A stretch of DNA of 64,000 nt from Phocaeicola dorei (GTDB taxonomy: Bacteria; Bacteroidota; Bacteroidia; Bacteroidales; Bacteroidaceae): contig NZ_CP046176.1 in the NCBI RefSeq assembly GCF_013009555.1, forward strand, positions 3,255,501 through 3,319,500. The letters are read 5' to 3'. Positions within the stretch are counted from its first letter, which is position 1; the number at the start of each line of letters is the position of its first letter. The notes under the pieces are model-generated. The model made no database searches. It had not been told where the DNA came from and saw only the letters and a list, made by a program, of their open reading frames with translations. The translations under genes were made by a program, and so were the position numbers. Below are positions 18,916 through 31,669 of the stretch, in pieces.

Positions 18916-19692
18916 TTAAAATATAAAGCCTAACCCTAACGACAAATTGGAAAGAGCCAATTTATCTTTCCCTTCATTCTTCTCGTCAGTAATATTAGCC
19001 GATTTCAGACCTTTTTGATAAGCAACATTCAAAAACAAGCGCTTCCAATAGATGCTGCCCTGTATGGCAATTCCCCAGTCAAAACGGTTAATATTACCTT
19101 TAGGATCGTCCCCATCATCATTCTTGCCAAAGGAGGGACAATCATCTTTGGTTATGGTATGTTTATTTTCTCCATATTTGTCGGGGGATACTGTCAAATA
19201 TGTATCCGACTCATATTTAAACTTACCAAACAGCCCATAAGAGAAGTAAGGGCCCACTCCCAACTGAACCCTAAACGATTCTGACAAAGGTAAAGCATAA
19301 GCAAATAAAATAGGAACGTCCAAATAGCCCAGATTATGTTTTTGAGTGACACTAGTGCCGCGAGATTCTGTCACATCATATTTCTTATAAGAATCCAAAT
19401 CGACCCGATGCGATTTTTTAGTAGTAAATTTATCATATTCATAAGTGATACCTTTCATAGAAAGTCCAATAGCAGGCTGAATACTAAAGTTGCCAATCAC
19501 AGGAACATCTATAAAATAATGGACACTGTAACCCATATAGCTTTTATTATTATAATCTTGATCTGCCATAAGATCATTATACTTCCCTGTAGCACTGGTC
19601 ATATTTAACCCCACGCGAATACCGGAAGTAGTTTGTGCTTGTGCCATAAATGCACATACGGACATAGCCATGATAAAAAACAGTTTCTTCAT
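18916..19692 (-). CDS. Outer-membrane beta-barrel protein (PorT/OmpW-like porin family)
   Basis: The protein has 258 residues with a signal peptide ending AFMAQAQ (about residue 20). Alternating hydrophobic strands such as VPILFAYALPLSESFRVQLG and FDWGIAIQGSIYWKRLFLNV, and the final SLGLGFIF ending in Phe, are the marks of an outer-membrane barrel recognised by the Bam machinery. It resembles the outer_membrane beta-barrel proteins (porin-family or PorT-like) that are common in Bacteroides and mostly of unknown function. A broken copy of a related gene ends 15 bp before its start, and the promoter in front of that relic probably now serves this gene. Confidence 0.82.
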   Translation of the reverse strand: MKKLFFIMAMSVCAFMAQAQTTSGIRVGLNMTSATGKYNDLMADQDYNNKSYMGYSVHYFIDVPVIGNFSIQPAIGLSMKGITYEYDKFTTKKSHRVDLDSYKKYDVTESRGTSVTQKHNLGYLDVPILFAYALPLSESFRVQLGVGPYFSYGLFGKFKYESDTYLTVSPDKYGENKHTITKDDCPSFGKNDDGDDPKGNINRFDWGIAIQGSIYWKRLFLNVAYQKGLKSANITDEKNEGKDKLALSNLSLGLGFIF

Positions 19693-20385: not shown

Positions 20386-21597
20386 TTATTTTATTTCACG
20401 AATCAACATTCCCGGATAAAAATCGCCACCCGACACTTTTCGGAAAGTGGTAAAACCAAAGTCCGAACCATAAGCCTGTTCCTCGGAAGCCATATAACGA
20501 TTATCCCAAATCAGATTCTCCTTAGGCTGAATCACTCCTACACGCTTATAAGTCATTTTGCCTTCTTTGCTCAGTTCGGCTTCCAGTACTTCAAATTTAG
20601 ACTTTTCAGTGACTCCCTCTTTCAAGCCAATATAAGCTTTAAGGGGAGAAACACTAATTAAGGGGGTATTTACTTTGAACTGGTCAAAATTCTTTTGCAG
20701 ACTCGCTATATTTTCATCAATGGCACGTTGGCATGCCTTTCGCACCATTTGCTGGGGCTCGTCCAAGTTAATACCCAAAAAGGAAGTGTTACTTCCATCA
20801 CTATGCTGGCTGCCCACATACTTCAACTTGAACATCTTACGGTTATTATTGAAAGCATTCACCTTCTCCTTATTATCCTTATCAGTATAATATTGAGTAT
20901 AGAATTTTGTTGCAGTCTCTTCATCCCAAACCAGTTGATAGAGATAAGTATCAATATTTACTTTAAACCCCTTATAGGATGCAACTATATCTCCCGTAGA
21001 ATTACCTAAATCCATATAGGATGTCTCACCGGTGTAAATGGCCGCTGCCGCACCCAGCCCTTTGACAATTCCTCCCCACACACTTGAACCTTTTGAACGG
21101 TCAATATAGCGAATATCATTCACAATAAGAAAAGTATTTCCAATCAAGTCCTCACCGGCATCTTCCAACAGAGCGTTTCCGCGTTGAGTCTTGGATGCCA
21201 AAGCCTTGTCCAGTTCGGAAGCATTGTACAGCCCTCGTTCTTTCACCAGTTCTACATCACAGACCCCTGTCATGTAATCACGGTTAAACCAGCGTCCTAC
21301 CATACGACTGGCAATACCATTATTTCTGATAAATTCATCTATCTCCTCATGGTTTTTATCCAATTTCTTTTCAGAAGTATAGATTACTTTTACACTTAAA
21401 TCATGATTATTGTATTTATCAGGAACAGGAATTTTGAGAAAAACATCCTTTATTTCATCACCAAATTCTCTTCCTTCGTGATTGATCATCATGCTATAAA
21501 GAGAACTGCGACGATATTTTATTTCGCCGTCTCCTTGGGCTTGAATTTGAGCGGCGAATACCACCGTCAACAACTGTATTATAATGAATCTTTTCAT
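20386..21597 (-). CDS. Exported protein of unknown function, last gene of the WG operon
   Basis: I do not recognise the family. The protein has 403 residues and a signal peptide ending AAQIQAQ (about residue 20). A glycine/alanine-rich segment, VWGGIVKGLGAAAAIYTG (about 170-187), is the only hydrophobic stretch after the signal and might insert into or lie on a membrane. The rest is polar with mixed helix and strand (for example YLYQLVWDEETATKFYTQYY). It follows the large WG-repeat gene by 18 bp and is followed by the operon terminator, so it is probably produced with the other exported proteins of the operon. Confidence 0.7.
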   Translation of the reverse strand: MKRFIIIQLLTVVFAAQIQAQGDGEIKYRRSSLYSMMINHEGREFGDEIKDVFLKIPVPDKYNNHDLSVKVIYTSEKKLDKNHEEIDEFIRNNGIASRMVGRWFNRDYMTGVCDVELVKERGLYNASELDKALASKTQRGNALLEDAGEDLIGNTFLIVNDIRYIDRSKGSSVWGGIVKGLGAAAAIYTGETSYMDLGNSTGDIVASYKGFKVNIDTYLYQLVWDEETATKFYTQYYTDKDNKEKVNAFNNNRKMFKLKYVGSQHSDGSNTSFLGINLDEPQQMVRKACQRAIDENIASLQKNFDQFKVNTPLISVSPLKAYIGLKEGVTEKSKFEVLEAELSKEGKMTYKRVGVIQPKENLIWDNRYMASEEQAYGSDFGFTTFRKVSGGDFYPGMLIREIK

Positions 21598-21615
21598 TTT
21601 TCAAACATTCAATAA

Positions 21616-23442
21616 TTAATAATCCCAATGTTTATCTGGAATGACAAAGGTTATCTTAAACATATTTGTATCCGGGTCAAAACGTGCAATCACTCGAAGA
21701 GCCTCTACTTCGGTCAAGCTCTTCTTGTCTTCCGCTAACATATATTGTTTGGCCAAGACCATATCCTCTTCTTTTTCGAACAAGCAAGGCACCAGTATCT
21801 TGCCATCCGGATCAATAATCCCCCACTTTCCATCGGACATCACATAAGCCATCTCATTATCAAAATTGGATGCATTGGCAAATCCCTGCTTCAGACGAAC
21901 AGACTTTTGCACCCCATCATAAAGGTAATACAGGTTATCCTTTTTCACCCATATCAATTGCGGATTGACTATAGGAGCTACACCTTGCCACTCTAAAGGA
22001 ACGACAACCCGGTTCTGCAAATCAATAGCCCCCCATAATTTGTTCAGGCATACGGATGCATACCCCCGATGAAAATTGCCTATACGGTCATACTTATCGG
22101 ATACGATTTGTCCTTTCATATCTACATAAAACCAAGAAGCATTTTTTTGTACTCCCAAGCGCCCATTGTTCACACTGGTAAGCGAATTAGTATATTCAAT
22201 AGGAATAACAACTGCCCCTGTAGAATCAATTGCACCAAAAGCCGATCCCTTTTGTACCACCCGGTATCCTTCATTGCTCAGGAAAGCCTTTGACAGGCCA
22301 CCAATCACCTTGTTCCCCTTTTTATCTATGAAATACAATTCATCATCCAATGAAACCGGAGCTAAATTATGGCTGAAAGCCCCAAACTTTCCCTTTTCTG
22401 AAGAAGGTATTCTGACCATCACTTCAGCATCCAAATCATAATAAGCTTTAGCTATTTGCTTCTTTTCCACTTTAGCAAGCCTAAGCATATTGTCTGAAGG
22501 AGGAAGAATAGCCTGATTGGCTGTTAAAGGAATAATAGTATTTCCATGGACATCTACCAACCCTTGGGATTTCTTATTAATGAAATAAAAATAATCTACC
22601 CTCGATGAAGGCAACTGGGACTCAGCAGCATGAGGCTTGGGAAGCAGCAAGCTCTGTATCTCCTGCTTGGTAGCAGGAAATGCGGACTGGTCTGCCTTAG
22701 TATAAAAGGCAGCCTCATCAAGCAAAGCTCCAGTTTTCTTATCTCGCAAAATAGGGAAGTTGCCCACATCTTCATATTTGGCAGGAATTATTTCCCGCCC
22801 ATTTTCATTGATTAACCCGAATTTACCTTTAGACACCATGTTGTTCTTTTTATCGTATTTGCCACCGATATTAACCCAACAGATTCCTTGGTCGTTGAAA
22901 CTGCCTATAAAATTATAAGTAGGCTTCACTATGATATTGCCAGCTGAATCAATGAACCCGAACTTCTTGCCTTTCAAGACATATATCAGTTTTTTATTTA
23001 AATCTCCCATTGCCTCATAATCAGTTTTCAGGATTTCCTTACCTGTCTTATCAATCAACCCCCATTTTTCACCTGTATTACTACTAGCTTTATTGCCTAT
23101 GAGTCCACCCGTTGTTAGCATTACTCCTTTTTTAGTATTTCCACCTTCAGCGACGGGGCAAACCCCGTTATAAAATTCACCGATATATGTATATTTCCGT
23201 TTTGTAATGATTTCACCATCTTCATTAATCAGACTGTATTTTCCATCTTTTCCTATTTTAGCGATACCGTCTTTAAAAGGGGTAGCTTCATCATATTTAT
23301 ACTTTATCACTACTGTCCCGTCTTCCGTCATAAAGCCATAACGCCCCTTTTCATTCTGCACGGCCTTCAACCTCTGAGCTTGCACAGAGCCACTGACCAG
23401 CACCAGCAGACATAGAATTAGGATAACTTTTTTATTTCTCAT
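21616..23442 (-). CDS. WG-repeat protein, exported (large)
   Basis: WG (KWG leptospira) repeats are beta-hairpin units of about 35 residues, thought to form extended binding surfaces. About nine to eleven can be counted here: for example GRYGFMTEDGTVVIKYKYDE, KYSLINEDGEIITKRKYTYI, KWGLIDKTGKEILKTDYEAM, KFGFIDSAGNIIVKPTYNFI, KFGLINENGREIIPAKYEDV, and near the C-terminus KWGIIDPDGKILVPCLFE. The start at 23442 gives MRNKKVILILCLLVLVSGS and a clean signal peptide ending VQAQ; an upstream extension to 23487 would overlap the previous gene. Its position in the operon and the shared repeat type link it to the first gene at 26.7-28.3 kb. Molecular role unknown. Confidence 0.82.
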   Translation of the reverse strand: MRNKKVILILCLLVLVSGSVQAQRLKAVQNEKGRYGFMTEDGTVVIKYKYDEATPFKDGIAKIGKDGKYSLINEDGEIITKRKYTYIGEFYNGVCPVAEGGNTKKGVMLTTGGLIGNKASSNTGEKWGLIDKTGKEILKTDYEAMGDLNKKLIYVLKGKKFGFIDSAGNIIVKPTYNFIGSFNDQGICWVNIGGKYDKKNNMVSKGKFGLINENGREIIPAKYEDVGNFPILRDKKTGALLDEAAFYTKADQSAFPATKQEIQSLLLPKPHAAESQLPSSRVDYFYFINKKSQGLVDVHGNTIIPLTANQAILPPSDNMLRLAKVEKKQIAKAYYDLDAEVMVRIPSSEKGKFGAFSHNLAPVSLDDELYFIDKKGNKVIGGLSKAFLSNEGYRVVQKGSAFGAIDSTGAVVIPIEYTNSLTSVNNGRLGVQKNASWFYVDMKGQIVSDKYDRIGNFHRGYASVCLNKLWGAIDLQNRVVVPLEWQGVAPIVNPQLIWVKKDNLYYLYDGVQKSVRLKQGFANASNFDNEMAYVMSDGKWGIIDPDGKILVPCLFEKEEDMVLAKQYMLAEDKKSLTEVEALRVIARFDPDTNMFKITFVIPDKHWDY

Positions 23443-23474
23443 ATTCTTTTTATTTAAAATCATTTGAACTTGAA

Positions 23475-24410
23475 TTAATGGAGCCAAGTAATATTAGTAG
23501 TAACCGGTTGCTGCCCATTACCAAATGCTACACCTATAGCTCTGGCAGCTTCTATCCTCTGCTTTTTCAGCCCCGCTTCATCCTTATATTTCTCACGATT
23601 CTCAAAATCCCAATCACTGGTCACCTTTTGCTTTATTTCATTATACAAAGCTTTAGCTTCACCTTCACAACTACTTCCCGGCTCAATGAAAACCAACCAG
23701 TCAAAAGCCCTTGAAGCACCTTCCGCATCGGGTGACTTTGCCCATTCGGATCTGGCGTATTGCATAATCAATTGACAATTATAATTCACATATTGAGTAT
23801 AATAAGTGTCTATCAGTTTACTAGCTTCCTCATAGCCGACACAACATTCAGGAATGGAGGTAACATAATACAATGCAGCATCATACTCATGCATAGAAGC
23901 ACTTTTTTGCGCTTTTATCAATATTTGCCTATAATTACTATTATACCAAGAGATAATTTTTTCTTTCCCTTCGCGTATAAATTCTTGCATTTTCACGTTT
24001 TTGCCATTTATTGCACGGAAAGCATTGATATATGCCCGGTTAATATTAGTACCTACTCCTTTTGCATCCACAGTGAGAGTAGAAAATACTTTCTGCCCTA
24101 CTGCATCTCCTATATACAAAGTCAATTGAACAGTAAGCGCTGTACTGACAGGAGGACCGGACAATGTTTCCTTATATAAAGTATTGGCCTTAGCTGTGAT
24201 AAAGAATGGTGTAAAATTGGAATTGGCAACACCCCCCTGAGCGGCCACTGCCGCAGCTAAACGATTTCCTAAAATCTCTTGTACCTGAGATGGAAGTTCC
24301 TCTTTCTGGGCAGCTTTAGCTATTGTAAGGCTTATCTCACAATCCTGTGCTGCCGCAGACATGGCACAACATGCACACCAAGCGGTAAATATCATATTCC
24401 TTATTTTCAT
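23475..24410 (-). CDS. Exported protein of unknown function
   Basis: The protein has 311 residues with a signal peptide ending AMSAAAQ (about residue 22). The N-terminal half (VQEILGNRLAAAVAAQGGV, FTPFFITAKANTLYKETLSG, LTVQLTLYIGDAV) resembles periplasmic proteins of the TolB/CsgG type that begin with an alpha/beta unit; this is only an impression from pattern. The C-terminal half is helical with four cysteines (ECC, NYNC, SSC), which could form disulfides. It follows the DUF6175-like gene by 7 bp, so the two are very likely translated together. Confidence 0.7.
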   Translation of the reverse strand: MKIRNMIFTAWCACCAMSAAAQDCEISLTIAKAAQKEELPSQVQEILGNRLAAAVAAQGGVANSNFTPFFITAKANTLYKETLSGPPVSTALTVQLTLYIGDAVGQKVFSTLTVDAKGVGTNINRAYINAFRAINGKNVKMQEFIREGKEKIISWYNSNYRQILIKAQKSASMHEYDAALYYVTSIPECCVGYEEASKLIDTYYTQYVNYNCQLIMQYARSEWAKSPDAEGASRAFDWLVFIEPGSSCEGEAKALYNEIKQKVTSDWDFENREKYKDEAGLKKQRIEAARAIGVAFGNGQQPVTTNITWLH

Positions 24411-24417
24411 ATCTTTT

Positions 24418-25368
24418 CTATTTTTCTCCGATAACCAATTCAGCTTTACCTAACCCTTTCGTCATTACTTTGCAGGTAAGATTGGCTTTCTGATTGAGAT
24501 ATTTGCGCAAATCATTTGCAAAGCTTCTTGTATCTCTAGCCATTCCATTTTCACGATAAAGCGGAATGCGTACCTGCTCAAAAAGCATCATATTCTCAGT
24601 TGCATCAGTTAAACTAAAACGATGAGTCACCGTATTCTGCGCCACCCAATCTTCTATGATTTCCTGTAGTTCAGCCCCCCCAAATTCACTTTCCAAATTA
24701 ACACCGCTCCCATTATCAAACACGTGGACTTCTAATGCTACTTCACGGCCATTAGCCATCAAATCATCAAAATGTTTCTGTAACTGACTTACGAAAGCAT
24801 CCATCTTGTCTACTACCGCTTCTTCCAACAATACTGCCACTTCAGCAGCCATAGAAGGTTCTCCCGTACCTTGCGTCGCTGCGACCTGCTTATTAGTGTA
24901 AGCATCCAAGCCTCGCAAAGTATAAGTAACAGAACGTTTGGGACCCATTGTATTAATATTCCAAACTACTTCAATCAGAATATCAGCTTTAGCTCTATTC
25001 ATTAACCGATCCAAAGGAGACTCTGCCAGTGAAGCTCCCGAAGTAGAACTGGTAGTCATCTCATGTTCCGCCGAACTCTGCTCTATGGAACGAATAGAAG
25101 ATGCCATATCTTTCAACGGAAAATCTTTTTCAGCCATCAACTCACCTATTTTCGTTATGACATTCACCAAGTTCAGATCATTATCCAACGCCTTTTTATA
25201 ATCCGGAAGTTCGGTAATAATGCCTTGATTGTTATATTTTTGTGTATAACCATTATGGGTACACCACACATTAGCAGGAACAACCATAATGGTGGGTTTT
25301 TTAGCCTGTCCATACACTCCGGTGTGTACAAGTGCTACAATAAATAAAATAGCATATAATTTTTTCAT
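24418..25368 (-). CDS. Exported DUF6175-like protein with CsgG-like pattern
   Basis: The protein has 316 residues with a signal peptide ending TGVYGQ. I think this is the family labelled DUF6175 in Bacteroides, from memory. The order of elements resembles the CsgG/LpoB fold: an opening strand KPTIMVVPA, a stretch ADILIEVVWNIN, then VTYTLRGLDAYTNKQVAATQ, and a helix before a final strand VALEVHVFD. In CsgG-like proteins this fold builds periplasmic or outer-membrane assemblies. A Ser/Thr-rich linker (TTSSTSGASLAE) separates the first helices. It sits 12 bp after the LPP20-like lipoprotein gene and 7 bp before the next gene. Confidence 0.68.
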   Translation of the reverse strand: MKKLYAILFIVALVHTGVYGQAKKPTIMVVPANVWCTHNGYTQKYNNQGIITELPDYKKALDNDLNLVNVITKIGELMAEKDFPLKDMASSIRSIEQSSAEHEMTTSSTSGASLAESPLDRLMNRAKADILIEVVWNINTMGPKRSVTYTLRGLDAYTNKQVAATQGTGEPSMAAEVAVLLEEAVVDKMDAFVSQLQKHFDDLMANGREVALEVHVFDNGSGVNLESEFGGAELQEIIEDWVAQNTVTHRFSLTDATENMMLFEQVRIPLYRENGMARDTRSFANDLRKYLNQKANLTCKVMTKGLGKAELVIGEK

Positions 25369-25380
25369 GTTTTTCTGTCT

Positions 25381-25866
25381 TTATGGTTTTAAAATTTTAT
25401 CTTCTATCAGTTTCTGCTGTAATTGAGAACGAAGCACACGCACCGTAGTGGAATAAGAAATTTGAGTCTTATTAGAAGTCTTCATGTTAGAATTTGTTTT
25501 CTTATCTTCCATACTTACATACTTCAGGTATTCCCCTCCGTCTCTAAAAAAGTCGTTAAAATAATATGCATACCGTTCCTGTGCATTCACTTCTGTTACC
25601 AAAGGGCGCACACTACATTCACGACTACCGGCAGCAACACCTTTGAACAAAACATCCCTTACTGCATTTTTCTTTGCCTGCTCTATAGCATCAGTACGAT
25701 TTTTCCCTCTGCCCCAAGCTCGAAGTGTCTCCGAACCATCCAGTTCTACTCCCAAACATTCACTCTCAAAGGAATGATAGGAAGAAACACTCTTTTTGCT
25801 GCTGCATCCGGCAAAGACAAGTAAAAGCAGACATCCCAATTTCCACGTATAAAATAGATATTTCAT
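25381..25866 (-). CDS. LPP20-like lipoprotein, paralogue of the gene at 26.1-26.6 kb
   Basis: A lipoprotein signal ends LLVFAGC, so Cys at about residue 18 would be lipidated. I chose the ATG at 25866 (MKYLFYTW) because an ATG eight codons upstream overlaps the relic before it and gives a charged N-terminus. The core RTDAIEQAKKNAVRDVLFKG, followed by Pro, YYFNDFFRDGGEYLKYV and a C-terminal helix, is shared with the protein of the second gene of the operon (AVHGVLFKG, DYFDVFFQKGGSYINFA). The Ala-rich helix before a beta-strand resembles the small LPP20 family. Function unknown. Confidence 0.72.
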   Translation of the reverse strand: MKYLFYTWKLGCLLLLVFAGCSSKKSVSSYHSFESECLGVELDGSETLRAWGRGKNRTDAIEQAKKNAVRDVLFKGVAAGSRECSVRPLVTEVNAQERYAYYFNDFFRDGGEYLKYVSMEDKKTNSNMKTSNKTQISYSTTVRVLRSQLQQKLIEDKILKP

Positions 25867-25879
25867 AATTTTTTCTTCT

Positions 25880-26134
25880 TTAAAATTCATAGCCTAATTT
25901 CAATAATACAATATTCTCAAAATGACGCTCTCCTCCACAAACTTCCACAACGACCAAAGGATACTGATAAATTTCACCATTGGATGCCTTTATTTTCACT
26001 ATCCGTACGCTTCAAGATAACTCCCTTCACTACGTACCATTATTCAGATAAAACACTTCATGAGCCTGCTGGGCAAAAGCAGGCAATAGTGCGCCAGCCA
26101 GTATCAGAAAAGTAACAATCAATCTCTTATACAT
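25880..26134 (-). pseudogene. Decayed exported-protein gene inside the WG operon
   Basis: The minus strand starts with a good signal peptide, MYKRLIVTFLILAGALLP then AFAQ, followed by QAHEVFYLNNGT. The frame then meets TAG, TGA and TGA. The sequence continues in a neighbouring frame as VVKGVILKRTDSEN and returns to the first frame as VKIKASNGEIYQYPLVVVE, ending LLKLGYEF and TAA. Two compensating indels explain it. The pattern EVxYLxNGxxxxGxIxx...G.IY.Y is that of a small exported Bacteroides family. It begins 3 bp after the stop of the previous gene and ends 13 bp before the next start, so the operon organisation has stayed intact around a dead gene. Confidence 0.68.
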
Positions 26135-26137
26135 AAG

Positions 26138-26632
26138 CTAAAATCCATTATTTAGTCCTTTAATAACTCCGGCTGATACCAGCTCTTGATAGAGGGCGTC
26201 TTTCGCAACGGAAACCACTGCTGAAATTCGATACTGCTTTCCCATTTTCACCACTGAAAGATTCTCTCCTATCATATTGGCAAAATTTATATAAGAACCT
26301 CCTTTTTGGAAGAAGACATCAAAATAATCCTGATGCTGCTGTTCTACCACCATACTTCCTGCCAAAGGTTTCTGCCGGGTACGTGAAGTCTGACTGGAAA
26401 ATCCTTTGAAAAGCACCCCATGAACCGCACACTTCTTGATCACATCGATATCCAATTTACTTTTCTTCTGGATTACTGTCACTTTTACTAAATAAGTACC
26501 CTGTACACCTACTCCTTCTCCCTCTATCTCATACTTTAAAAGGTCATCACCTGCGTACGCTCCAATACAGATGAATACAAAAAGAATCGTCATAATGATT
26601 CTACCGACAAATTTCACATTCATTACTTTCAT
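26138..26632 (-). CDS. Small exported protein, paralogue of the LPP20-like lipoprotein
   Basis: The protein has 164 residues with a signal peptide ending CIGAYAG; the ATG at 26623 (MNVKFVG) is an alternative start. There is no lipobox, so unlike its paralogue at 25.4-25.9 kb it should be soluble in the periplasm or secreted. Shared elements in the same order are AVxxVLFKG, a Pro-Leu, YFxxFFxxGGxYxxxxxM, and a C-terminal helix (LYQELVSAGVIKG against LQQKLIEDKILKP). It is the second gene of the operon, 22 bp after the TPR/WG gene. Function unknown. Confidence 0.7.
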   Translation of the reverse strand: MKVMNVKFVGRIIMTILFVFICIGAYAGDDLLKYEIEGEGVGVQGTYLVKVTVIQKKSKLDIDVIKKCAVHGVLFKGFSSQTSRTRQKPLAGSMVVEQQHQDYFDVFFQKGGSYINFANMIGENLSVVKMGKQYRISAVVSVAKDALYQELVSAGVIKGLNNGF

Positions 26633-26654
26633 AATTCTAATCTTTAATTATATA

Positions 26655-28343
26655 TTATTGTTCACACCCTTCTTTACTGGCAAACTGCAAATATTCATCC
26701 TTCACTTTCCGATAATACTCTCCCATCAATTTGCCTGTATTCTCCTGAATCTTTTCTTCAAGATCTTCTAACACATATTTCAAAAAATCGCAATGATTAC
26801 TGCCTCCTGCTATAGCAGTAGCTGTAGATCCACCAAGGGCATCTATCTCATCCATAGAAACCCCCAGACTAATTCCGGATGAAGGCTTATTTTGATTTCT
26901 GCTTTCATCCTTAAAAGAATTAGAGTTCGTAGATTCCAAATCATTATGCACACTTGCAATGTAACCAATCGTATTCAAAGTTCTTTTCTTCTTGTCCTTT
27001 TTGGCTTGCTTCAGCGCCAACGCTACTTCTTCATTATCCGGATCCAATTCTGCCGCTATCTTCAGATGCTCCATTCCCTTAGAATAAATGCCATCTGCCA
27101 CTTGTCCTTTTCCCATATAATAGTGGGCCATGGCATAGTCCGGAATCAAGTCTGTTAATAAATTAAACATACCCCAAGCACCTGCCACTCCCCTTTTTTC
27201 TTCTTTCAAAAAGGATTCTGTCACATCCTCTGCAAAGCCATCAGAGAGTTGTCCCTTCGTATCTATCCAACCAAGTACGGAATTCAGCCAAACAGGTGCT
27301 TTGCCATCCACAAAACTACCTATATAATCAATCCTTCCCGGTAGTAATAAAGCACCTTGACTATTATATAACCCCATTGCAAAACTTTTGGCAATCCAGA
27401 CCTTTGCCGATACATCATAATATACCCATTGATAAACACAAGGCAATATAGTACGCCCATATATATCCAAAACTCCCCATTTATCCCGCTTGCAAGCAAG
27501 AACGAATCCATCTTCAGCTATTATAAGCTCCTCATATTCTGTAGGAATTACAATTTGTTCTCCCACTATAAGGCCCATTTTACCATTATCTTCCCTTATT
27601 CTGAGAGAATCGGTTATAACTTCTGTTCCAGGATTATTAATTTTTTCATTGACCTCTCTGCTACATTCAGCGATTTTATCAAGCAAATCATCAAAATCAC
27701 CGTTCCCTTTCGCATTTTTCATTTCTTCTTGTTTCTGACGATATACCTTATTGGATATAGGAACGCTTATCATTGCTTCTTCTAGAATATATTTACATGG
27801 AACAACGATTTCCCCCCTCAAATTAATAGCCCCGAACTTACCATCTTGCTTGATTGTAGCCAACATGTTATCTCTAAAATTATCAGCGTAATCAAATTGA
27901 GGTTCAATGACAAATTCTCCTTTTTTATTTATAAAGCCAAATTTGCCATTCTTCTTTACCGCAGACAGTCCTAAATTAAACCCATGAACATCATCTACAT
28001 TTTCAAACTGCGGTTTAATTATAAAACGGTTGTGTATGTCTATAAAACCTACTTTTCCTCCTAAAACTACTCCCGCCAACTTTTCTGTAAATCTCTTAGT
28101 CACCTCTTCATATTGTGGAGAAATCAACCAATTTATCTCATAATCCTGATTTACTAAAGCCGCATCCCATTCACCAAACATAGAATTACCTCTATATTTT
28201 GAATTTTCCCACCATCCTTTATTTTCGGTCTGCTCATATCCCCATTTCTTTGTTGCAGCATTTTGGCGTGCTTTCTGTGCATAAAAACTAAAAGGTATAG
28301 CACAGCATAACAAAAACAATATTACTTTTTTTACTTCATTCAT
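26655..28343 (-). CDS. WG-repeat protein with TPR-like segment, first gene of operon
   Basis: The protein has about 562 residues with a signal peptide ending PFSFYAQ; I prefer the ATG at 28343 (MNEVKKVILF) to one two codons earlier. WG repeats include KVGFIDIHNRFIIKPQFENV, KFGFINKKGEFVIEPQFDYA, KFGAINLRGEIVVPCKYI, KMGLIVGEQIVIPTEYEEL and KWGVLDIYGRTILPCVYQW. After about residue 375 comes a TPR-like pair (LIPDYAMAHYYMGKGQVADG, HLKIAAELDPDNEEVALAL), then a polar Ser/Asn-rich linker and a helical end. It follows the response regulator gene by about 270 bp, a gap long enough for a regulated promoter. Role unknown; WG and TPR units both suggest protein binding. Confidence 0.8.
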   Translation of the reverse strand: MNEVKKVILFLLCCAIPFSFYAQKARQNAATKKWGYEQTENKGWWENSKYRGNSMFGEWDAALVNQDYEINWLISPQYEEVTKRFTEKLAGVVLGGKVGFIDIHNRFIIKPQFENVDDVHGFNLGLSAVKKNGKFGFINKKGEFVIEPQFDYADNFRDNMLATIKQDGKFGAINLRGEIVVPCKYILEEAMISVPISNKVYRQKQEEMKNAKGNGDFDDLLDKIAECSREVNEKINNPGTEVITDSLRIREDNGKMGLIVGEQIVIPTEYEELIIAEDGFVLACKRDKWGVLDIYGRTILPCVYQWVYYDVSAKVWIAKSFAMGLYNSQGALLLPGRIDYIGSFVDGKAPVWLNSVLGWIDTKGQLSDGFAEDVTESFLKEEKRGVAGAWGMFNLLTDLIPDYAMAHYYMGKGQVADGIYSKGMEHLKIAAELDPDNEEVALALKQAKKDKKKRTLNTIGYIASVHNDLESTNSNSFKDESRNQNKPSSGISLGVSMDEIDALGGSTATAIAGGSNHCDFLKYVLEDLEEKIQENTGKLMGEYYRKVKDEYLQFASKEGCEQ

Positions 28344-28614: not shown

Positions 28615-29379
28615 CTACAACAAATAAAACCTATCCTGTAATTCTTTTCTGAATTTCTTGGAAACCTGAAGTTCCGTAATATTCTCAAACGGGGGAAACA
28701 TGACACAGCGGTTCTCCTTAATCATCATCAGATAATTGATATTAATGATATACGACTGATGGATCTGGACGAAGCAGGGGTCATATCCCTTGATATGATC
28801 AGCCGTAGTATTTTTCTTCAGCAGCAGAGGCAGCTGGTTGTTCAGCACCACTTCCCACAGTTTCCGGTCGGAGTTATAACGGAAAAAACCAATGTCAATG
28901 GAACGTAGAATACGCAAATCATTGGTAGGCGTGGATATCATAAAGGTATGCTCGCCGACCGAATGCACACGCGCAGGAATAGCCAAAGATGCAGCTGCCG
29001 ACTCTTCCTCCTTTTTCATGAAGCGGTCGATAATCCCTTCCAGCTCCTTCTTGTCTATCGGCTTCAGCAAGTAGTCGAAAGCTGCCCCACGGATGGCATA
29101 AATCATGTATTTATCATAAGCCGTATAGAACACAATCTGCATATTCCAAGTGATTGCCCCCCTTATCTGTTCCAGCAGTTCCATGCCCTTCATGTCCGGC
29201 AGTTCCACGTCCAGGAACAGCAAATCCGGATGAACCTTTTCCAGCAGTTTCCGGCCATTCACACCGTTACGCGCCATCCCATCTATAGACAGCCTGTTAT
29301 ATTTCTTCAGTTCCAGACAAAGATTGTCCGCAGAGAACTCATCATCATCAATTATTACGACCCTGTATAGTTTATCCAT
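28615..29379 (-). CDS. LytTR-family response regulator
   Basis: It is a two-domain transcription regulator of 254 residues. The receiver has the acidic pocket DDDEF (11-13), phospho-acceptor Asp57 in LLFLDVELPDMKG, Thr86 in FYTAYDK and Lys106 in YLLKPID. The C-terminal LytTR DNA-binding domain covers about residues 145-254 (FVQIHQSYIININYL is its typical core). I start it at MDKLYRVVIIDDDE (29379); the 24 codons upstream do not fit the family. It follows the sensor kinase gene in the same orientation with a 127-bp gap, and it is the nearest regulator to the exported-protein operon downstream. Confidence 0.92.
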   Translation of the reverse strand: MDKLYRVVIIDDDEFSADNLCLELKKYNRLSIDGMARNGVNGRKLLEKVHPDLLFLDVELPDMKGMELLEQIRGAITWNMQIVFYTAYDKYMIYAIRGAAFDYLLKPIDKKELEGIIDRFMKKEEESAAASLAIPARVHSVGEHTFMISTPTNDLRILRSIDIGFFRYNSDRKLWEVVLNNQLPLLLKKNTTADHIKGYDPCFVQIHQSYIININYLMMIKENRCVMFPPFENITELQVSKKFRKELQDRFYLL

Positions 29380-29506: not shown

Positions 29507-31543
29507 CTAAACCATCTTTTTCAAATTATAATCATAACCATGGGGCAGGAAGACAGCAAACTCGCAACCGGTTTCTCCGTCTTCCAACTGCACATTGGTT
29601 ATGGATATATCGATATGCTTCTTATTGTTAGCGTTCAACAACTGTATGGTTTGAAGAATCACTTTTATACCGGTGCCTGTACCGTAGTTGGCACTGTTTA
29701 CCCGGTAACCTCCCCCGTTGTCACGCACCTTGACACAGATTCCTTCCCCGGTCTTTCTGATGTCAACCCACAGTCTTTTCATCCCCTCTTTGTCCTTCAG
29801 GGCATGCTTGATGGCATTTTCTATCGGAATCTGTATCATCATGGAAGGAAGTATTTCTTGGTCAAGATGGATGGCAGCATCTATGGATGTGGACAGTATA
29901 AAGCTATCTCCCAATGCTTCACGTTCCAGGTTGATAAACGTATTGACAAAGTCCAGTTCCTCAGCCATGGTAACACACAGTTGCTCGGTCAGTTCCAGGT
30001 TGCGCCGCATCAGTTTTACCAGCCCACGCATATTTCCGACTTGCTCGTCGGTGTAGTTACCCATCTCACGGTTCAGAATGTTAAAAATGAAATGGGGAGA
30101 AACCCGGTTACGGATATTCTCCATACGCAAAGTGGCAATCATATTCTGACTTCTCATTTGCAGCAAGAAACGCTGTCTCTTGTTGTATGTGTAGACAAAT
30201 ACAGCGAGCCCCAGAATACAGATGCAGGCAAACATCCACAGGTAAAGCGTCTGGTTCAGCGCCAGAACTTCATTCTCTTTTTGCTGAATGAAAATTTTCT
30301 GCTTCATCAGCGTGGTGTCCTGACTGTATTTCAGATCAATTTCAGCTGTACGCATTTTAATACGCTCATTACGTGTAGAATCATCAATACGCTGATTTTC
30401 CATTTGATAATAATAAGCTTGTTTGAAATCTCCCACCTCTTCAAAATAATGTTGTAGGTAACGGTTACGGATATGCTGCATATTCGGTTCCACATAATCA
30501 GGCTGGATAGCCTCAGACATACGTTTACGTGCTAAAGGCAAATTATTCTGCTTCAAGGCAAGTTCAATCAACTGGGTATCCAAATAATAGAGAGCTGTCT
30601 GATTTTCGATAGAACGAAAAAAATCACTACAAAGATTTAAATAGTATGCGGCAGAATCAACCTGATTCATCAACAGAAAAGTTTCTCCCAAATTCATTTC
30701 AGTCAGATGTTCCTCAAAAATCATATCTGGATAAGAACGAGCTAACAATAATGATTTTCTGAAAAATTCTAAAGCATTAGGATAATCAGCACGAAAATAA
30801 TAAGAATTACCACGATTATTCAAATAAATATGTTTCTCAAATGGAAGCATCTTATCATATTGCCGAGCCGCCAGTTCATAGTAATAATCACAAGAAGTAA
30901 AATCACGAAGTTCCATATAAACCTGTGCCAATCCGTAATAAACAGGAAAACGCTTTTCTTCAGGAATCTTCAATGAATCACAGTAAGACAAAGCTTTACG
31001 ATACCACATCGCACCTTTATCATAATGACCGGTACGGACAAAAGCATCAGCCAAATTAATAGAAATATCATGAAGCATATCTCTGTTACTACCCTTCAAA
31101 CGATAATCGAACGCTTTTTGAAAACATACCACTGAAGAATCTGTCAACCCTTGACGAACACATACATTACCCCGCATATTGTAAATCTCAGCATACAAAT
31201 CATTAATTAACGGTGACGGTTCAGCTCCATCGCAAAATACTTCCGCTCTATCCATGCTAAGTTTAGCCGAATCCATCTCGGACTTAAACATATATGCTTT
31301 TGCCAAAAGAACAAGATAATGGCAATACGCCACACTATCTGTGGTAAACGACATTTGCCTGGCAGTCCGGGTACATACATAATTAGGATTTTTTGACAGT
31401 GAATCAATTATAAAATCATAATACTGCATATAAATATCCATTTGAGTCTTTTTATAAGTTCCGGAACTTGTACAAGATACTCCCCATATACAAAATAATA
31501 TACTATACCATAAAAATTTAAATATCAAATGTATGTTCTCCAT
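29507..31543 (-). CDS. TPR-containing LytS-type sensor histidine kinase
   Basis: It is a membrane sensor kinase of the His_kinase (PF06580) plus HATPase type. The start at 31543 is fixed by a strong AAGGAGGA five bases before the ATG, rare in this genome; upstream ATGs are ignored. The N-terminus is a signal sequence ending GVSC, a possible lipobox. Residues about 30-400 form TPR helices (for example AYYLNLCSDFFRS, HIYLNNRGNSYYFRADYPNA) in the periplasm. A membrane helix spans about 432-453. The phospho-acceptor is His484 in RVSPHFIFN; N-box NAIKHAL and DNGGGY, GTGTGIK follow. It presumably phosphorylates the LytTR regulator encoded next. The signal is unknown. Confidence 0.9.
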   Translation of the reverse strand: MENIHLIFKFLWYSILFCIWGVSCTSSGTYKKTQMDIYMQYYDFIIDSLSKNPNYVCTRTARQMSFTTDSVAYCHYLVLLAKAYMFKSEMDSAKLSMDRAEVFCDGAEPSPLINDLYAEIYNMRGNVCVRQGLTDSSVVCFQKAFDYRLKGSNRDMLHDISINLADAFVRTGHYDKGAMWYRKALSYCDSLKIPEEKRFPVYYGLAQVYMELRDFTSCDYYYELAARQYDKMLPFEKHIYLNNRGNSYYFRADYPNALEFFRKSLLLARSYPDMIFEEHLTEMNLGETFLLMNQVDSAAYYLNLCSDFFRSIENQTALYYLDTQLIELALKQNNLPLARKRMSEAIQPDYVEPNMQHIRNRYLQHYFEEVGDFKQAYYYQMENQRIDDSTRNERIKMRTAEIDLKYSQDTTLMKQKIFIQQKENEVLALNQTLYLWMFACICILGLAVFVYTYNKRQRFLLQMRSQNMIATLRMENIRNRVSPHFIFNILNREMGNYTDEQVGNMRGLVKLMRRNLELTEQLCVTMAEELDFVNTFINLEREALGDSFILSTSIDAAIHLDQEILPSMMIQIPIENAIKHALKDKEGMKRLWVDIRKTGEGICVKVRDNGGGYRVNSANYGTGTGIKVILQTIQLLNANNKKHIDISITNVQLEDGETGCEFAVFLPHGYDYNLKKMV

Positions 31544-31669
31544 CTTATCCTCCTTCATAGTTTTATTGACAAACATAAGCAAAAATAAACACAAGCATAA
31601 GCTTTTATTAAAATTTATTTGATCCCAAAAAGCCTTTTAGATAAAATTTACACAAAGATGAAGATTCAC

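Follow-up and report, generated by a model that had tools for sequence, protein, structure and literature searches.

A conserved envelope gene module of the Bacteroidota with predicted FlgT- and CsgG-like folds and a candidate C-terminal docking tail

FlgT is built of an N domain, a CsgG-like M domain and a beta-barrel C domain. For Vibrio, the available portions of PMC7990780 and PMC6375700 describe an H-ring composed of the lipoproteins FlgO and FlgP and the periplasmic protein FlgT. A block of seven intact genes, g1 to g7, in a 64,000-nucleotide stretch of Phocaeicola dorei (assembly GCF_013009555.1, contig NZ_CP046176.1, positions 3,255,501 to 3,319,500 of the forward strand; hereafter the window) resembles the H-ring in that FlgT or ring chains are the best Foldseek matches of the modelled proteins, its products are exported and a lipoprotein is among the parts; it is unlike the H-ring in having no detectable sequence homology and no flagellin, in a different split of domains between proteins, and in the presence of a DUF6175 protein and a putative WG-repeat client. 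Like CsgG and PelC, DUF6175 is predicted to hold an alpha-beta domain of their type, but it continues into an additional C-terminal region; neither curli nor Pel genes were noticed nearby (no search was aimed at them), and any pore would be hypothetical. In related loci, genes of LpoB/CsgG or LPP20 type stand in for core members or accompany them, whereas the window proteins match neither family. The WG-repeat family PF14903 was matched over its cut-off of 25.6 bits by g1 (129 bits) and g6 (232 bits); g6 in addition carries a C-terminal W-D-[F/Y] tail and lies directly before g7, and since the genome (5.63 Mb, single contig) has WG repeats in g1 and g6 only, the repeats look dedicated to this system.

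We regard the block as a conserved, undescribed envelope module of the Bacteroidota, with a core platform and a WG client docked on g7 by its tail, a reading whose chances we judge to be about even. Its more specific form, a flagellum-free ring platform of FlgT/CsgG type that takes exchangeable clients through a C-terminal W-D-[F/Y] docking tail read by g7, is tentative. In the library searched there was no paper mentioning DUF6175 or DUF4412 and none for LPP20 with CsgG and Bacteroidota; the listings for WG repeats held nothing on this system by title. Listings were also obtained for TraT/CsgG/FlgT and FlgT/FlgP/FlgO, the TraT/CsgG/FlgT set holding none on it by title, and one paper matching FlgT homologues in Bacteroidetes names FlgT, in the part of its text that was available, only in the title of a reference. 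The elements of the block are as follows.

g1, 28343 (or 28349)-26655, minus strand: exported protein with 7 WG repeats (PF14903, 5.4e-38) and a TPR-like stretch at residues ~396-451 (TPR matches)
g2, 26632-26138, minus strand: small exported core protein, no Pfam family
Relic, ~26134-25888, minus strand: former gene for a small exported protein, with stops in all three frames
g3, 25866 (or 25890)-25381, minus strand: lipidated paralogue of g2, with a lipobox-like ...VFAGC read by eye
g4, 25368-24418, minus strand: DUF6175 protein (PF19672, 1.2e-118)
g5, 24410-23475, minus strand: exported core protein, second half helical and TPR-like
g6, 23442-21616, minus strand: exported protein with 10 WG repeats (PF14903, 3.9e-70) and the C-terminus I-P-D-K-H-W-D-Y
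g7, 21597-20386, minus strand: exported core protein belonging to a large family with no name, modelled with a fold like that of FlgT domains M and C
Intrinsic terminator, 20298-20283 / 20267-20252, minus strand: perfect 16-bp inverted repeat (sequence and RNA fold)

All seven frames occur in the same order, g1 included, in Phocaeicola vulgatus ATCC 8482, the closest named relative found in a scan with one protein query (DUF6175 protein 98% identical). A Sec-type N terminus was judged by eye in each, and the gaps are 22 bp (g1-g2), 12 bp (g3-g4), 7 bp (g4-g5), 32 bp (g5-g6) and 18 bp (g6-g7), with the relic between g2 and g3. The first-pass annotation, which had described seven exported minus-strand genes in tight spacing with one relic and a strong terminator, two WG-repeat proteins and two paralogous small proteins, one of them lipidated, is borne out by these frames and N termini, by the terminator (RNA folding energy -30.8 kcal/mol; z -8.45 relative to 200 shuffled sequences), by PF14903 (5e-38 and 4e-70), and by reciprocal matches of P. 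vulgatus g3 to window g2 (3e-11) and of P. vulgatus g2 to window g3 (1e-10). Against Pfam and NCBIfam, g2, g3, g5 and g7 matched no family over cut-off, and the only named families are the WG repeats and DUF6175 (g4, 396 bits; cut-off 23). A search of g6 against Protein Data Bank (PDB) sequences gave no match at 0.01. The signal of Bacteroidota surface lipoproteins is acidic residues after the lipobox cysteine; g3 has no acidic stretch there and therefore probably faces the periplasm.

Loci for comparison comprised 18 from 18 genomes plus the P. vulgatus record, 20 from further Bacteroidales and 20 from the same family (f1, the window genome's own, taken to be Bacteroidaceae). The main set of 57 loci is L027-L084 without L044; 20 further loci formed a later set for the tail. 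The recurring unit in the 57 loci is one or more small proteins, DUF6175 and g5 in that order, often with g7 before or after, while some loci carry only part of it (g7 alone in L048, L058, L059, L061 and L062). In a census of 198 Bacteroidales genomes, the window genome included, DUF6175 was found in 49, g5 in 47, g7 in 37 and small genes in 42, the last figure being restricted to matches in the small-protein portion of a model with one fused row (unfiltered tally, 47). DUF6175 was also present in 45/47 genomes with g5, 36/37 with g7 and 41/42 with small genes; of the 55 DUF6175 places, 47 had g5 at no more than 1.5 kb and 35 had g7 at no more than 8 kb. Phylum-wide, the Pfam model found DUF6175 in 13 of 296 genomes (own included), and distribution in family f1 is patchy (DUF6175 in 47/199 genomes, g7 in 17/199). 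The g7 family is large, with 3096 matches among 7999 candidates scored. Because the same genes sit together in other genera, families and classes, their grouping exceeds chance.

The conserved heart of the block is the small protein or proteins (g2/g3), g4, g5 and g7, not the WG proteins. No counterpart of g1 stood before the small genes in any of the 57 loci, that slot being so filled only in the window and P. vulgatus; g1 is a local addition. The first-pass annotation had named a lack of co-occurrence outside close relatives as a refutation of its reading and had suggested comparing gene order across Bacteroidales; the reading survives the former, given the co-occurrence above, and the order small-DUF6175-g5, often with g7, recurs. 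It had also suggested an envelope assembly with the WG proteins as its scaffolds. The undescribed multi-gene envelope assembly is supported; the WG proteins as its centre are not, since only 13 of the 57 loci have a WG gene immediately before g7, with none at that place in the others, and g6 makes better sense as a swappable client on g7 than as a scaffold.

The core genes travel together, and fusions occur both among them and with a probable outer-membrane barrel. DUF6175 proteins begin with the small protein in L028, L039, L040, L042, L043, L054, L064 and L084, and the N-terminal domain of g5 is found at the C terminus of the longer proteins L039|4411 (2.6e-9), L040|8727 (1.9e-6) and L041|6454 (7e-5), the last of which also carries an LPP20 domain. 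Of 43 g7 proteins, 11 are extended at the C terminus by more than 110 residues. Barrel models matched this extension below the Pfam cut-off in L041 and L063, those of L054 and L028 had no match, and the other four tested gave weak matches; downstream of g7 there is a distinct barrel gene in L033 and L080 (over cut-off) and in L027 (below it). Some g7 proteins carry a probable outer-membrane barrel. The slot of g7 before the small and DUF6175 genes is filled by an LpoB/CsgG-like gene in L036, L081, L082 and L083, with LpoB matches over cut-off in L081-L083 (3.5e-9, 1.7e-5 and 2.4e-9) and just below it in L036 (1.9e-4).

Related arrangements were also noted. The LpoB/CsgG-like genes of L081-L083 have a sub-threshold FlgT_C match. 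A second locus type (L029, L030, L066, L068, L077) carries DUF6175 and g5 and, after them, an exported protein of greater length (417 to 444 aa in L030, L068 and L077; sub-threshold FlgT_N/LPP20 matches in L030 and L077, none in L068), with no g7 or small gene labelled. ExbD/TolR-like genes, recognized by eye, lie one to two genes upstream of g7 in L051:2061-2534, L056:5482-5955 and L063:1474-1947 (families f125 and f73), and a link to a motor is conceivable.

In 17 of 17 cases, the window included, the WG protein encoded next upstream of g7 has the C terminus W-x-[F/Y], most often WD[F/Y]. Counted from the C terminus, W stands at -3 and F or Y at -1 in 17/17, D at -2 in 14/17 and I, L or V at -8 in 17/17, so that the tail usually reads [I/L/V]-x-[E/D/N]-[E/D/N]-x-W-D-[F/Y]. 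Among partners other than WG proteins, W at -3 with F at -1 was found in 7 of 8, the eight having been picked after the tail had been seen and with L110 left out. One of these, in L072, matched DUF4412 over cut-off (1.4e-7), those in L031, L069, L073, L079 and L113 are tied to it by blastp, and those in L048 and L059 have no blastp link to L072 or DUF4412. In the 57 loci, 24 g7 genes are preceded on their own strand by a gene whose end is under 140 bp away, and 19 of these 24 upstream products end in W-x-[F/Y], as do 2 of 696 other open reading frames of at least 100 aa. In the 20 further loci the tail was present in 4 of 11 upstream genes, namely all three WG proteins and a 338-aa protein, and in 0/78 other frames. 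WG proteins away from g7 (g1 and one in L067) end without it, that of L034 being cut by the locus edge. Across the window genome the WD[F/Y]-stop pattern gave 22 matches, 14 with a true stop, of which only g6 is long, the others having at most 66 residues. The residue before W varies freely, the D and F codons vary synonymously, and tailed partners are spaced from -38 to +36 bp from g7; since codons vary synonymously and spacing varies, selection appears to act on the peptide.

A tree of g7 (52 rows) placed the barrel g7s in one group (9 rows, support 100/100) and g7s without a tailed partner in another (17 rows, 100/99). The remaining 26 rows form a group with tailed partners, of which 17 have a WG partner, 8 a non-WG partner and 1 none (L110, whose upstream protein ends AFYDF). 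L072 and L073, with DUF4412-related partners, are nested among the WG g7s (100/99); therefore the class of partner changed while the tail stayed.

Structure models were made of g7 and of one fused small+DUF6175 homologue; a mixed small+DUF6175 alignment was left out because the small proteins fell on the wrong domain. FlgT or a flagellar-ring chain was the best Foldseek match of both models. On a second look at the DUF6175 domain of the fused model, CsgG and PelC matched best, and the predicted periplasmic alpha-beta domain of CsgG type lends support to the CsgG-like strand order earlier proposed for this family. As modelled, small+DUF6175 resembles the N and M domains of FlgT, with a CsgG/PelC-type domain, and g7 its M and C domains. 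The FlgT arrangement may thus, in fold only, be split over proteins; no single window protein displayed all three domains. Sub-threshold matches to the FlgT Pfam models were found only in other genes of related loci, and no flagellin was found in the window genome by a search whose control was positive in 4 of 14 reference genomes. Neither sequence membership nor a flagellar context was borne out, and likeness of fold does not make the block an H-ring.

In the mechanism we propose, the small protein or proteins, DUF6175, g5 and g7 would form an oligomeric, probably ring-like core at the periplasmic face of the outer membrane, with the lipoprotein g3 and, in relatives, also the barrel as anchors. 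The client-binding subunit would be g7, recognizing the tail, and g6 would be a client plugged into the platform by that tail, its repeats presenting a binding surface.

Besides the late choice of the non-WG partners, several observations weigh against this reading. The tail was missing from 5 of the 24 upstream products in the first set (L053, L062, L063, L064, L079) and from 7 of 11 in the second (L110, L116, L119, L120, L121, L124, L125). In two of these loci, L053 and L064, the preceding gene is another g7, of the barrel type; those of L062 and L063 are unrelated genes 74 and 130 bp off, and the L079 product ends EWDDE. L079 and L110 precede g7s of the tail-partner group, L053, L062, L063, L064 and L125 precede g7s of other groups, and L116, L119, L120, L121 and L124 were not placed on the tree. 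Support for the tail-partner group is only 91/91. A WG gene precedes 0 of 11 barrel-type (extended) g7s vs 13 of 32 others, figures that track clades and are uncorrected for phylogeny. The g7 model is of moderate quality (pLDDT 68.5) and superposes on FlgT at 11 A rmsd, the domains agreeing and their arrangement differing; the CsgG/TolB-N fold, moreover, is widespread and establishes neither ring nor function. At the sequence level, FlgT_N, FlgT_M and FlgT_C matched none of 90 members of the g7 alignment and none of 12 of the small-protein alignment at 0.1, and PF02169 (LPP20) none of the same 12 rows; the small and g7 families had no FlgT, LPP20 or CsgG Pfam match, and no such model was among the 25 families listed of the 47 that g5 matched. 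For the window DUF6175 protein, PF03783 (CsgG) was not matched and only PF19672 was over cut-off. Treating g5, g7 and small+DUF6175 as one family was rejected (hhalign probability at most 6%). Profile searches of PDB sequences with four alignments gave nothing below 1e-3 and no FlgT, LPP20 or CsgG, the lowest matches being LptE for g5 (0.0027) and a designed protein for DUF6175 (0.007). The patchy distribution argues against an essential role.

The tail itself might be no docking signal but a leftover of shared descent, or it might arise from coupling of translation to g7, several partners overlapping or almost touching the start of g7; in the last 90 residues, WG and DUF4412-related partners also share one 24-residue match (E 0.001). 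Against this, the two classes had no full-length match at E 1e-3, and there are the variable spacing, the synonymous D and F codons, the free residue before W and the tailless WG proteins of g1 and L067; we consider this explanation unlikely. If instead the block is a set of separate exported proteins under shared regulation, forming no complex, its patchy distribution would fit, but the recurring core order, the fusions between members and the strong co-occurrence make this very unlikely.

Two further explanations accept a complex and give it another task. The best matches of the DUF6175 domain, CsgG and PelC, together with the barrels fused to or beside g7, point to a port for export or assembly of a surface polymer or protein in the manner of CsgG (curli) or PelC (polysaccharide), the WG proteins being its surface product or receptor; when the loci were read by eye, with no aimed search, no fibre subunit, glycosyltransferase or polymerase was seen as a constant neighbour, and such a port has in our view a small chance of being correct. 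A complex of LpoB type that activates peptidoglycan synthase or controls the cell wall, with the WG protein gauging or binding wall or substrate and any ring being incidental, seems quite unlikely: FlgT and CsgG match better than LpoB, and no penicillin-binding protein or wall enzyme was seen as a constant neighbour in the same reading by eye (no aimed search), even though an LpoB/CsgG-like gene stands in place of g7 in four loci and the fusion model has a weak match to the C-terminal domain of LpoB (0.015).

Upstream of the block, two regulatory genes were found.

LytTR response regulator, 28615..29379, minus strand: same orientation as the block, 271 bp upstream of g1 (PF00072, PF04397)
Histidine kinase with TPR, 29507..31594, minus strand: partner of the regulator (PF06580)

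This pair lies beside the operon in the window, in P. vulgatus and in L033, with no close match to either gene labelled in the other 56 of the 57 loci, and it probably controls the operon. With the Bacteroides -33/-7 consensus, no promoter match was found directly before g1 and two were found before the response regulator (29443-29412 and 29525-29495, minus strand). P. vulgatus has a shorter relic at the position matching that of the window, so decay of the relic probably predates the split of the two. A gene for a 190-193 aa exported protein lies between two small genes in L072:8360-8941, L073:5790-6371 and L074:5788-6360, that of L072 with a very weak barrel match (0.064); the relic was tried as a copy of this gene and gave no match. 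Downstream of the terminator lies an outer-membrane barrel gene (18916-19692, minus strand; PF13568, 4e-22), which was not supported as a member of the operon, being separated from it by the terminator; its distance to g7 is 0.7 kb here and 2.6 kb in P. vulgatus. No plasmid copies of the genes were found.

If tail and g7 act as proposed, the W-D-[F/Y] end would be a new short C-terminal periplasmic address, or docking signal, common to otherwise unrelated exported proteins. Parts like those of a flagellar ring in a genome without flagellin would bear on the origins of such rings and on the standalone roles of their platforms, and the module would bring into view three families (small, g5 and g7) that have no Pfam family over cut-off, that of g7 being large.
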